Shown here: positions 11,417 to 23,216 of the stretch, one piece after another
How positions within the stretch are numbered: position 1 is the stretch's first letter
Layout: each line of letters begins with the position of its first letter
Source: Prevotella sp.
GTDB lineage: Bacteria > Bacteroidota > Bacteroidia > Bacteroidales > Bacteroidaceae
Direction of reading: 5' to 3'
DNA: 48,283 nt
NCBI GenBank assembly: GCA_017470345.1
Contig: JAFUEP010000002.1
Span: 1 to 48,283, forward strand
Program-made: the position numbers and the translations under genes
Notes under the pieces: generated by a model
Seen by the model: the letters and a program-made list of their open reading frames with translations, nothing else
The model's database searches: none
Told to the model about the DNA's origin: nothing

Positions 11417-14167
11417 TTATTTTCCCCCGACGATCTTCTTGATTTCCCAGAGCTTGTTGATGGCCTCCATGGGCGTGAGGTTGTTGATGTCGAGCGTGAG
11501 GATCTCGTCGCGCACCTGGATGAGGACGGGGTCGTCGAGCTGGAAGAAGCTCAGCTGCATGCCCTCGCGCGAGTCAGCTATCTCGGCCAGTGGCCGCCCA
11601 GCCTTGCCCACCTGGGCGTTCTCCGACTCGAGCTGGCGGAGCACGGTGTTGGCGCGCTTGACGATGGAGCGGGGCATGCCCGCAATCTCGGCCACGTGGA
11701 TGCCGAAGGAGTGCTCACTTCCGCCGCGCTCCAGCTTGCGGAGGAAGATGACGCGGCCGTCCACCTCGCGGACGGAGACGTTGTAGTTCTTGATGCGCGA
11801 GAAGTTCTTCTCCATCTCGTTCAGCTCATGATAGTGGGTGGCGAAGAGGGTGCGGGCGCGGGCCTTGGGCTGCTCATGGAGATATTCGACGATGGCCCAG
11901 GCGATGGAGATGCCGTCGTAGGTCGACGTGCCGCGGCCCAGCTCGTCGAAGAGCACGAGCGAGCGCGGGGTGACGTTGTTGAGGATATTCGAGGCCTCGG
12001 TCATCTCGACCATGAAGGTCGATTCGCCCAGCGAGATATTGTCGGAGGCCCCGACGCGGGTGAATATTTTGTCCACCAGACCGATTCTCGCACTCTCTGC
12101 GGGCACGAAACAGCCCACCTGGGCAAGTAGTACGATCAGGGCCGTCTGACGCAACAGCGCGGATTTACCGGCCATATTCGGGCCGGTGATGATGATGATC
12201 TGCTGTCGCTCCTGGTCGAGCATGATGTCGTTGGGCACGTAGGGCTCGTCGACGGGCAGCTCGGTCTCGATGACGGGGTGGCGTCCCTGGCGGATATCGA
12301 TGACGTCCGAGTCGTCGACGACGGGGCGTATGTAGCGGTGCTCCTCGGCCGTCTTGGCGAAGGAGAGGAGGGCGTCGAGGCGCGCCAGGAGCATGGCGTC
12401 GGTCTGAATCTGGGGGATGTAGACCTGGATGGCCTGCACGAGCTCGGCGAAGAGTCGGGCCTCGAGGGCGAGGATCTTTTCCTCAGCGCCCAGGATCTTC
12501 TCCTCGTAGTCCTTCAGCTCCTGGGTGATGTAGCGCTCGGCCTGGGCCAGCGTCTGCTTGCGCACCCATTCGGGCGGCACCTTGTCCTTATACGTATTGC
12601 GCACCTCGAGGTAGTAGCCGAAGACGTTGTTATAGCCTATCTTCAGCGACTGGATGCCCGTCTGCTGGGCCTCGCGCTCCTGGATCTGCAGCAGGTAGTC
12701 CTTGCCCGAATAGGCGATGCGTCGCAGCTCGTCGAGCTCGTCGTTGACGCCGCTGGCGATGACGCCGCCCTTCTGCACCTGCTGGGGCGGGTCGTTCTGC
12801 ATCTCGCGGGCGATGCGGTCGCGGATGTCGGGGCAGAGGTCGAGGCGGTCGGCAATCTGGGCGATGACGGCATTGCGGCCCGCGGCGGGGGCTGGCCCCG
12901 AGGCGTTAGCTGCGGCATTGCCGCAGCTAACCGGACAGGAAGAGGCGGCGGGGATTCCGGAGGGCGCGGCGGGGCTTCCCGTCTGGTTTGTTGCGGCATT
13001 GCCGCAACAGAGGGCGCAGGCATGCTTGACCATGGCGACGGCCTCGAGGGCCACGCGCAGCTGCACCACCTCGCGGGGCGTGACGCGGCCTACGGCCACC
13101 TTCGAGATGATGCGCTCCAGATCGCCGACGCGCCGTAGCTGGGCGTCGATGACCTGGCGGAACTCTGGCTCGCGGAAGAAGAAGTCGACCACGTCGAGGC
13201 GCGCCTCGATGGCCGCCCGCTCCTTCAGGGGGAAGACGAGCCAGCGGCGCAGCAGGCGTCCGCCCATGGGCGAGACGGTGCGGTCGACGACGTCGAGCAG
13301 CGAGCGGCCGTCGTCCTGCATGGGCTGGATGAGCTCAAGGGAGCGGATGGTGAACTTGTCGAGGCGCACATACTTCTCCTCCTCGATGCGCGAGATATGC
13401 GTGATATGGGAGATCTGCGTGTGCTGCGTCAGTTCCAGATACTGCAGGATGGCGCCCGCGGCGACGAGGCCGCTGCGGAGATGGTCGACGCCGAAGCCCT
13501 TCATCGACTTCACCTGGAAGTGTCGCAGCAGCTTCTGCTGGGCCGTCTGCTCAGTGAACACCCAGTCGTCCATCTGGAACGTGGTCCAGCGCGTGCCGAA
13601 GTAGCGCTCGAAGTCCTGGCGGCGCTCGCGGTCGTAGAGCACCTCCTTGGGCTGGAAGTTGCCCATGAGCTTGTCGACGTAGTCGTAGGTGCCCTCGCCG
13701 ACGAGATATTCGCCCGTCGAGATGTCGAGCAGCGAGATGCCGCAGGCCCCGCGGCCGAAGTGGACGGCACAGAGGAAGTTGTTCTCCTTATAGTTCAGCA
13801 CATTGTCCGACAGGGCCACGCCGGGCGTCACCAGCTCGGTGATGCCGCGCTTGACGAGCTTCTTCGTCAGCTTCGGGTCCTCCAGCTGGTCGCAGATGGC
13901 CACGCGCTTGCCGGCCCGGATGAGCTTGGGCAGGTAGGTGTCGAGTGCGTGGTGGGGGAATCCGGCCATCTCGTCGCCCTTCGCCCCGGCGCCGTTGTTG
14001 CGCTTGGTCAGGGTGATGCCCAGGATGCGGGAGGCCTCGACGGCGTCGTCGCAGTAGGTCTCATAGAAGTCGCCGCAGCGGAAGAGCATCAGTGCGTCGG
14101 GATGCTTCGCCTTGAGGTCGAAGAACTGCTTCATCATCGGCGTCAGTTCGCCGTCTTTCTTTGCCAT
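11417..14167 (-). CDS. mutS: DNA mismatch repair protein MutS, with a repeat-encoded insertion
   Basis: 916 residues. MutS binds mismatches and, with ATP and MutL, starts mismatch repair. The mismatch-binding F-Y-E motif is at residues 34-36, Walker A GPNMAGKS near 660, followed by [13 protein letters not shown] ABC signature residues and [13 protein letters not shown] beta-clamp-binding-like motif QLSFF lies near 869. The family is usually 850-870 residues. The excess includes about 40 low-complexity residues (384-423, rich in Gly, Asn, Ala and Pro) between helices of the core domain, encoded by two palindromic repeats at 12905-13009. The flanking regions ([17 protein letters not shown] and [18 protein letters not shown]) are normal, so the insertion probably forms a loop that is tolerated. 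Its own -7 box lies 23 bases upstream. Confidence 0.97.
12905..13009. repeat. Inverted pair of GCGGCANTGCCGC palindromic elements inside mutS
   Basis: Copy A is a perfect palindrome with 13-bp arms (12905-12917 and 12919-12931) around one central base; with the outer GTCCGGTT read on the minus strand it spans 12907-12935. Copy B has 10-bp arms (12989-12998 and 13000-13009), preceded on the plus strand by GTCTGGTT (12981-12988). The copies face each other, with CCGGACAGGAAG and CTTCCCGTCTGG as an inner inverted repeat (10 of 12 match). Both are in frame and free of stops on the mutS strand, giving [11 protein letters not shown] and [11 protein letters not shown]. Confidence 0.9.
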
Positions 14168-14189
14168 AGTCCGAATAGGTTTTAGTCTG

Positions 14190-14197
14190 CAAAGTTA
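14190..14197 (-). promoter_or_regulatory. Promoter -7 box of mutS
   Basis: Minus-strand TAACTTTG followed by C, ending 22 bases before the mutS start codon. No TTTG or TTGG is found 19-21 bases upstream, so the -33 box is weak. Confidence 0.65.
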
Positions 14198-14216
14198 CAA
14201 AAAAGTCATGAAACGC

Positions 14217-22428: not shown

Positions 22429-22492
22429 AAAATTTGCTACCGCCGGATAAGGGAAAAGTGAAGAGTGAAAAGTGAAAAATTTGCTTCCGCAA
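22411..22492 (+). repeat. GAAAAGTGAAAAATTTGC word repeat before rdgB
   Basis: The array begins inside the last codons of the YitT-like gene. GAAAAGTGAAAAATTTGCT followed by a CCGC-type ending occurs twice, with shorter GAAAAGTGAAGAGTGA words between. It occupies all the space to the rdgB start. Confidence 0.8.
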
Positions 22493-22496
22493 TAAT

Positions 22497-23216
22497 ATGA
22501 TGAAGATTGTCTTTGCAACTAACAATGAGCATAAGCTCGACGAGATACGCCAGATACTGGGACCGCAGTTCGAGGTGCTCTCGCTCAGCGACATCGGATG
22601 CCATGAGGACATCCCCGAGACGGGCATGACCCTCGAGGAGAACGCCCTCCAGAAGGCCCGCTACGTCTACGACCACTACCACGTCAGCTGCTTCGCCGAC
22701 GACACCGGCCTCGAGGTCGACGCCCTCGGCGGACGGCCCGGCGTCTTCTCAGCCCGCTACGCCAACGTCATGTTTTCTGCGGCAATGCCGCAGAACACCG
22801 GACAGGCAATGCCGCAGAACACCGGACAGGAGGCGCCGCAGAACGGCGGACAGGAGGCGCCGCAGCCCCACGATTCCGAGGCCAACATGACGCAGCTGCT
22901 GAGCGAATTAGCAGAAAATAACAATCGCAAGGCACGATTTCGCACCATCATTGCGTTATTAATAAAGCACGACGTATGCCCATGCGGCTGCACGAGCGTG
23001 AAGGAGGAGCACCTCTTCGAAGGCATCGTCGAGGGCGAGATCACGCGTGAGCGCAGCGGCGCCGCCGGTTTCGGCTACGACCCCATATTCCGCCCCTCGG
23101 GCTACGACCGCACCTTCGCCGAGCTTGGCAACGACATTAAAAACCAAATCAGCCACCGGGCCCGCGCCACACAGAAACTGGCTGAATTCTTACTTAACAA
23201 CACCACTAAAAGATGA
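22497..23216 (+). CDS. rdgB: Non-canonical purine NTP pyrophosphatase RdgB/HAM1, with a repeat-encoded insertion
   Basis: 239 residues; the family is usually about 195-205. The enzyme hydrolyses ITP, dITP and XTP to the monophosphates and so keeps deaminated purines out of DNA and RNA. The substrate-site start [12 protein letters not shown], the acidic [25 protein letters not shown] and the late [12 protein letters not shown] and HRARA are all present. Between ARYAN and [12 protein letters not shown] lies an insertion of about 30 residues built of 8-residue repeats (AMPQNTGQ twice, [12 protein letters not shown]), encoded by a palindromic element and tandem copies of its right half. The active-site segments on both sides are intact. 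Two ATGs (22497 and 22500) are adjacent. The stop overlaps the porZ start in ATGA, which suggests coupled translation. Confidence 0.95.
22772..22865. repeat. Palindromic element with 24-bp tandem copies inside rdgB
   Basis: One full palindrome has arms TTCTGCGGCA (22775-22784) and TGCCGCAGAA (22786-22795), followed by CACCGGAC, the inverse of GTCCGGTG. The 24-base segment 22782-22805 is then repeated exactly at 22806-22829 and imperfectly at 22830-22853, with a partial copy to 22865. Because 24 is a multiple of three, each copy adds eight residues in frame. Confidence 0.9.

Follow-up and report, generated by a model that had tools for sequence, protein, structure and literature searches.

How does one short palindrome come to lie, in frame, in three unrelated housekeeping genes of a single bacterium? 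The question is raised by a 48,283-nucleotide (nt) stretch of DNA from Prevotella sp. (assembly GCA_017470345.1, contig JAFUEP010000002.1, positions 1 to 48,283 of the forward strand; hereafter the window), in which mutS, leuS and rdgB carry five copies of a tagged hairpin sequence. We propose that these copies are REP-type elements (REP, repetitive extragenic palindrome), most likely moved in trans by a divergent RAYT (REP-associated tyrosine transposase) of the same genome, and that protein loops and export signals are in this way probably being rewritten by a tiny mobile element. REPs are usually seen as extragenic; this family, from an abundant animal-gut group and with a candidate transposase identified, contributes extra residues for the most part, both to housekeeping proteins and to signal peptides.

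Each copy has a conserved left part, TCCYGTCYGGTK, followed by a 21-nt palindrome made of a 10-bp arm, a one-base centre and the other arm. A first-pass annotation of the window had described a 29-base unit with exactly complementary arms. Its layout stands, the outer 4-base arms pairing at 4/4 positions in all five copies, but its extent does not: the conserved left part reaches TCCYGTCYGGTK, and full-length copies measure ~45 nt. The leuS site 2 and rdgB copies start with GCC rather than TCC, and a few copies extend to ACGGGA, giving an imperfect palindrome of ~45 nt (46 nt at leuS site 1). The sequence GTCYGGTKNNNNGCGGCANTGCCGC occurs exactly five times in the window (Table 1), and at ≤3 mismatches it gives eight matches vs 0.02 expected in shuffles. 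The hosts named at first pass were borne out by NCBIfam and TIGR matches (the rdgB product is the non-canonical purine NTP diphosphatase RdgB); all three open reading frames (ORFs) run in frame and stop-free across the inserts, which lie, as had been supposed, at places where PDB relatives of MutS, LeuS and RdgB are shorter.

Table 1. Element copies, host genes and candidate transposase genes (window positions unless a contig is given).
Feature	Location	Strand	Description
mutS host ORF, 916 aa	11417..14167	-	NCBIfam NF003810, 1016 bits, over cut-off
mutS copy 1	12908..12940	-	tag + 21-nt palindrome, arms AGCTGCGGCA/TGCCGCAGCT
mutS copy 2	12977..13009	+	orientation opposite to copy 1; arms TGTTGCGGCA/TGCCGCAACA
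leuS host ORF, 1006 aa	18340..21360	+	TIGR00396, 916 bits, over cut-off
leuS site 1 copy	19252..19297	+	full-length form ending ACGGGA; 33-nt core part 19252-19284
leuS site 2 copy	19735..19767	+	arms AATGGCGGCA/TGCCGCCATT
rdgB host ORF, 239 aa	22497..23216	+	NF011398, 282 bits, and TIGR00042, over cut-off
rdgB copy	22775..22807	-	arms TTCTGCGGCA/TGCCGCAGAA
Degenerate 24-nt tandem copies derived from rdgB element	22803..22866	+	read from the sequence
Exact GTCYGGTKNNNNGCGGCANTGCCGC	12912-12936; 12981-13005; 19256-19280; 19739-19763; 22779-22803	-; +; +; +; -	
Divergent RAYT, 406 aa	C62:14900-16120 (= L042:1084-2304)		source assembly (G000)
Family B palindrome GGCGACGTGTCYCACGTCGC and second RAYT (L046)	C35, ~30.4-33.6 kb		source assembly (G000); Pfam Y1_Tnp 1.2e-7

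The core of the hairpin varies (GCGACA/TGTCGC, GTGGCA/TGCCAC and GCGTTG/CAACGC were also found), and its pairing is retained. Across 56 contexts from this and related genomes, chosen by tag and inner arms with the outer arms playing no part, and after the exclusion of 20 loci from unrelated organisms, the outer arms pair at 4/4 positions in 42, at 3/4 in 12, at 2/4 in one and at 1/4 in one. The tag together with at least 9/10 pairs was found in 58 distinct contexts vs 0 in the reversed sequence of the same 782 kb of fetched loci, which overlap and were mostly fetched for the element. Among 39 distinct 33-mers (set A1), selected for ≥8/10 pairs so that overall pairing is partly built in, changes on both sides are seen at 9/10 pairs, with 74 cells changed on both sides vs 2 on one side only; 15/500 shuffles had at least as many further pair types, and 0/500 attained any of the other four measures.

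Many copies had been expected elsewhere, and there are indeed dozens in the genome and others in related species. The source assembly (G000) is incomplete (Prevotella-type, 2.67 Mb, 61.6% complete, 68 contigs); in it the bare core GCGGCANTGCCGC occurs exactly at 30 places vs 2 for the reversed pattern, while the tagged form at ≤3 mismatches gives 52 matches vs 3 reversed, some copies being counted on both strands among the 52. Context was examined for 36 distinct copies, and 32 of these sit in ORFs, in frame. Among the 31 with listed cores the figure is 27, so that here, unlike REPs as usually understood, the family is not mainly extragenic: 23 lie in long ORFs (codon score >10), three in the RAYT ORF and one in a 293-aa ORF that we take to encode PyrK, and the four intergenic-looking copies comprise two on contig C9, one 100 nt after mnmG and one before the RAYT gene. 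The remaining, diverged copies are all in ORFs (5/5), two of them (hosts L168 and L169, counted in the 36) without clear length gain, as is a tag and palindrome at position 760 of the LeuS of G090 (L219, outside the 36). At least three more matches in the assembly (a second mnmG palindrome, C15 and C41) were left uncounted. Contigs C31 and C47 (L168/L170) share an identical stretch of 3037 nt, which carries a TonB-receptor-like ORF as well as a diverged element and is either a true or an assembly duplication.

Of 16 host ORFs scanned with NCBIfam, 9 gave a match and 7 none; over the cut-offs were a GH92 hydrolase, CobB, MnmG and an RND adaptor, and below them a glutamine-amidotransferase-like protein, an ABC ATPase (two copies), an IGHMBP2-like helicase, an N-acetylornithine carbamoyltransferase and a SusD-like protein. 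When the window's codon model was applied to other genomes, scores above 10 were reached by 9/12 rows in G100, 6/10 in G090 (one being the doubtful LeuS case) and 8/12 in G252, where two rows are one sequence and two more lie, with low scores, in the RAYT ORF. A second palindrome family of the source assembly (family B) provides a same-genome control: nine of its 15 contexts are intergenic and the remaining six are all in the ORF holding its RAYT, matches near contig ends having been dropped. That second RAYT lies in frame within a PglX-like DNA methyltransferase ORF, with GGCGACGTGTCYCACGTCGC copies around it.

One of the six possible frames is used by 18 of the 23 scored copies (1.4e-10 if the copies were independent, which they are not fully), although in each of the other five an open reading is possible in 24 to 30 of the 31 copies. 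Six of the 23 form the hydrophobic part of N-terminal signal sequences, as judged by eye, and three more such copies are found in G100 and G252. Similarity among these nine proteins is mostly confined to that region, the exceptions being the pairs L023/L024, L026/L039 and L025/L039. In the signal-peptide copies of the source assembly, T replaces C, yielding Cys and Leu for Arg and Pro, and the other arm is changed to match.

Empty sites, which had been looked to as evidence of insertion, were found for the copies of all three genes. The sister genome G325, whose LeuS is 97-99% identical to that of G000, is empty at leuS site 1, where G000 has 81 nt extra between near-identical flanks; in an ABC ATPase gene one copy likewise differs between the two genomes and the other is common to both. 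Nearly all relatives are empty at leuS site 2, occupied only in G000 and G325 among 24 informative LeuS sequences, and in mutS, where the element is present in 3/30 loci (G000, G325 and L146 of G279); for rdgB, 2/11 loci are occupied and 9/11 empty. mutS copy 1 recurs in G325 with a different linker length, and the tandem stretch beside the rdgB element has a longer version there. At the site of mutS copy 2, L146 holds another palindrome with four compensated pairs different and the tag on the same side, and the RdgB loop of G090 contains that genome's own palindrome type. Sites are also shared in the RND adaptor (G000 and G100) and in an unnamed protein (G000 and G090). Some sites are common to several species (in RdgB the loop of G090, and in LeuS site 3, described below), so that the copies are not all recent; this qualifies the REP/RAYT-like reading first suggested, which is otherwise supported.

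When 398 genomes of the genus were searched with a covariance model, scoring being limited to 17 candidates in each, 98 gave at least one match at E ≤ 0.01; the richest were G000 and G325 (at least 17 each), G100 (16), G252 (13), G090 (12) and G237 (10). An exact-pattern search of 60 relatives returned no genome other than G000. In a named collection the pattern was found in 46 stretches, including the uncultured Prevotellaceae/Prevotella assemblies RUG12472, RUG14088 and Red_deer_2_mag_11; 20 of the 46 come from unrelated organisms. Carriage by viruses or plasmids was considered and dropped: 52 viral stretches matched a peptide pattern, none was confirmed and no PHROG family was matched, and the plasmid side gave a single weak partial match, in Leptolinea. 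A role as DNA uptake signal was likewise set aside, copies being too few for it.

A record of a single site through time comes from LeuS site 3, where 12 of 25 aligned sequences, from 12 species, have a palindrome or its relic in the same codon register. In these 12, chosen for showing the palindrome and including decayed ones (set A2), 91.7% of cells pair and 18 are changed on both sides vs 2 on one; paired percentage, double changes and covariation score were each reached by 0/500 shuffles, and the number of doubly changed pairs by 5/500. The arms differ even between sister genomes (G342 vs G216, G100 vs G341). A LeuS-type core accounts for 8/12 matches in G216, and a related TTGCGAC core for 4/5 in G342 (LeuS itself included), both counted with one degenerate pattern that detects only some types. 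As the LeuS cores of these two genomes resemble cores common in each, overwriting of the arms from the genome's own pool of copies is suggested; the LeuS relic of G341 matched none of that genome's own listed types. The site records how a coding palindrome in nature changes both its arms together, so that structural selection, gene conversion and template switching can be told apart there.

A Y1/HUH transposase had been named as the thing to look for, and the genome has one: a RAYT-type gene, itself carrying the element, that the first Pfam scan missed. We had at first read the family as lacking a transposase because Pfam Y1_Tnp returned only an unrelated RAYT in G000 and none in G325; that reading was dropped when a weak match beside a palindrome in G372 led to the divergent RAYT with its internal copies. 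The protein matches NCBIfam REP_Tyr_transpos at E = 1.6e-10 and Pfam Y1_Tnp at E = 0.26, and MPDH[IL]HG and YxxDNPRR, whose Tyr is presumably catalytic as in other RAYTs, are retained in 7/7 aligned relatives. Some 150 residues follow the core domain in 6/7 aligned proteins, that of G372 being short; no Pfam or NCBIfam model names this part, and a sequence search of the PDB gave no relatives of the RAYT beyond two chance-level matches. The gene stands between what we take to be polA and ychF.

One element copy lies 70 nt before the start of this gene and three lie within its ORF. Copies at or in the RAYT gene occur in six further genomes, with differing palindromes: the palindrome centre precedes the start by 70 nt in G000 and G325, 63 nt in G252 and 84 nt in G090, and a palindrome falls at nt 381-432 of the ORF in G000, G325, G252, G315, G114 and G372, after the stretch GFKxGCNKAAREL or the like, some genomes having further internal copies. 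Among 28 loci retrieved from other genomes solely by the element model, three contain the RAYT gene. A further Bacteroidales (L060) has two copies at a RAYT relative, one within the ORF (8/10 pairs) and one 86 nt beyond it. A strict tag test on sets of 12 and 15 Y1 loci returned no tagged element. Elsewhere, in G061, copies of a classical GTAG-type REP, GTAGAGACGGGATTCTTCCCGTCTC, run along a further RAYT locus (L131).

Given the likely cognate RAYT and the copies, we see here a REP/RAYT-type system living, unusually, mainly inside genes: a dispersed tagged repeat family, in frame, present or absent between sister genomes, linked to a RAYT-type gene and with compensated arms. The conserved tag TCCYGTCYGGTK and the 10-bp hairpin with its one-base centre would constitute a non-autonomous element, mobilised in trans as single-stranded hairpins by the TnpA_REP-like Y1 transposase encoded on C62. 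Permissive loops, linkers and signal peptides are the main places where insertions survive. Hairpins there drift in sequence but regain their pairing, most likely at the DNA level, via template-switch correction of imperfect palindromes, overwriting from other copies, or both, which gives the different palindromes at orthologous sites. We infer the movement by the RAYT, the single-strand action and the way in which pairing is restored.

Several observations weigh against this account. No movement was observed, and the RAYT score is below the family cut-off (41 vs 80 bits). No tagged element was found near the RAYT relatives of L126, L132, L287 and L296 in the stretch examined, the RAYT copy of G372 is a perfect palindrome with no clear tag, and Y1_Tnp scans of several copy-rich genomes (e.g., G216 and G342) gave nothing, a scan that also missed the RAYT of G325. 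The copies of G237 lie mostly outside good ORFs, and as only 2/7 of its rows score above 10, the intragenic habit is not universal. At LeuS site 3 further pair types are no more numerous than in shuffles (417/500 at least as high). Lastly, the internal RAYT copies occupy a variable linker, as copies do in other hosts, so the RAYT may be just one more host. The same mobile palindrome would then be moved by another enzyme or by recombination between copies, which we consider unlikely; shared sites in other species in LeuS, RdgB and the RND adaptor, together with the copy-free RAYT relatives, speak for it, whereas the recurrence of RAYT copies at similar positions, before the start in four genomes and inside in six, speaks against it, as does the share of RAYT genes among the loci fetched by the element alone, which few other single genes match.

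It is far less probable that the palindromes are immobile, having arisen in hypervariable loops and been perfected locally by replication template switching. Published work names such switching as a source of compensated stems (PMC8794818), across the genus the linker of MutS is hypervariable, with mostly unrelated low-complexity inserts, and leuS site 2 has a net gain of only 6 residues, but a tag common to unrelated genes (the 58 contexts vs none above) and the clean insertion at leuS site 1 are left unaccounted for. Nor do we give much credence to hairpins selected as RNA (or DNA), that is, to cis-acting regulatory structures functionally kept in host mRNAs. Pairing conserved across species fits this idea, and a regulatory role is conceivable for the copy that directly precedes the RAYT start; the rarity of one-sided, G-U-type changes (2/390 cells in A1, 2/120 in A2) does not fit it, nor does the occurrence of copies in either orientation and in several frames across unrelated genes.

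TnpA_REP recognises tag and hairpin on single strands (PMC8266576). The closest described relatives are the REPtrons of TnpA_REP subclass 2.4 (RAYT group 4), a subclass found in Bacteroidetes, which have a Y1 HUH transposase gene with flanking REPs and REPs in frame inside the tnpA_REP gene between the HuH and Y motifs (PMC6006769). The present locus shares that in-frame placement, a short multi-copy imperfect or perfect palindrome, and a repeat-flanked gene for a REP-associated Y1 transposase, with homology below cut-off. Unlike subclass 2.4, the RAYT of G000 has DHIH, WE and YLDDNP in place of NH[IFV]H, WQ and YIxNNP, its core domain is followed by an extension that subclass 2.4 lacks, and the copies of the element are mostly in other genes. 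The foot, GTCYGGTK or near variants, also differs from the GT[AG]G of published RAYT-linked REPs, a further point against our account.

REPs inside genes, repair and tRNA synthetase genes included, have been described (PMC3733652). The first-pass annotation had cited REPs as a mostly intergenic parallel, which needs qualifying in that in-frame REPs in genes and even in RAYT genes are already on record (PMC3733652, PMC6006769). The GTAG- and CGTC-tagged REPs of PMC3733652, in many families of 20-100 copies, have tag plus hairpin and some units in genes, as here, but are mostly intergenic, unlike this element. Because TCCCGTCC contains CGTC, identity with CGTC REPs was considered; it was rejected on layout. 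CGTC REPs have the tag directly at the stem, stems of 8-9 bp starting with A-T pairs, loops of 4-5 nt and no linked transposase (PMC3733652), whereas the present element has a tag-stem spacer, a one-base centre and a RAYT link. Rickettsia palindromic elements (RPEs), part of which are classed as CGTC REPs (PMC3733652), are also palindromes translated in frame in many unrelated genes; they belong to another phylum and have another tag layout, and are set apart by description only. Nematomorph mitochondrial coding palindromes (PMC6649704) are inverted repeats kept perfect in translated genes, but they are long, form no dispersed tagged family and have arms encoding conserved protein regions, unlike here. 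Family B of the same genome is comparable as a short palindrome in many copies beside a Y1 transposase, and differs in its unrelated sequence and mostly intergenic location. Our searches of open-licence PMC papers turned up no comparable family in Prevotella or Bacteroidota, in line with the earlier statement that none described with this sequence was known; in-gene REPs and REPs in RAYT genes are already published, and it is for this family that we found no report.

A more specific possibility, which we hold tentatively, is a RAYT/REP system specialised in coding sequence, with its hairpin tolerated in most frames and repeatedly re-inserted or overwritten at the same permissive codons of the same proteins, a lineage adapted to signal peptides, and copies in its own gene. 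If so, the copies in the transposase's gene may allow its recognition or regulation, and orthologous loops would be rewritten in each species by that species' own palindrome type.

Two further features of the host genes are noted. Across the genus, the MutS loop corresponding to the mutS linker at ~12880-13030 is filled with unrelated low-complexity inserts, e.g., SENSEYSEN repeats, and over the compared stretch the linker has 82 residues in the window vs 39 in the shortest relatives. leuS also contains a third inverted repeat, different from the element: a GC-rich repeat at 20826-20893 (SSPEGDT...), which resembles sequences in the LeuS of G125, G350, G279 and G315 and in the MutS of G125, and which, used as a query, gave many short secondary matches in other ORFs.

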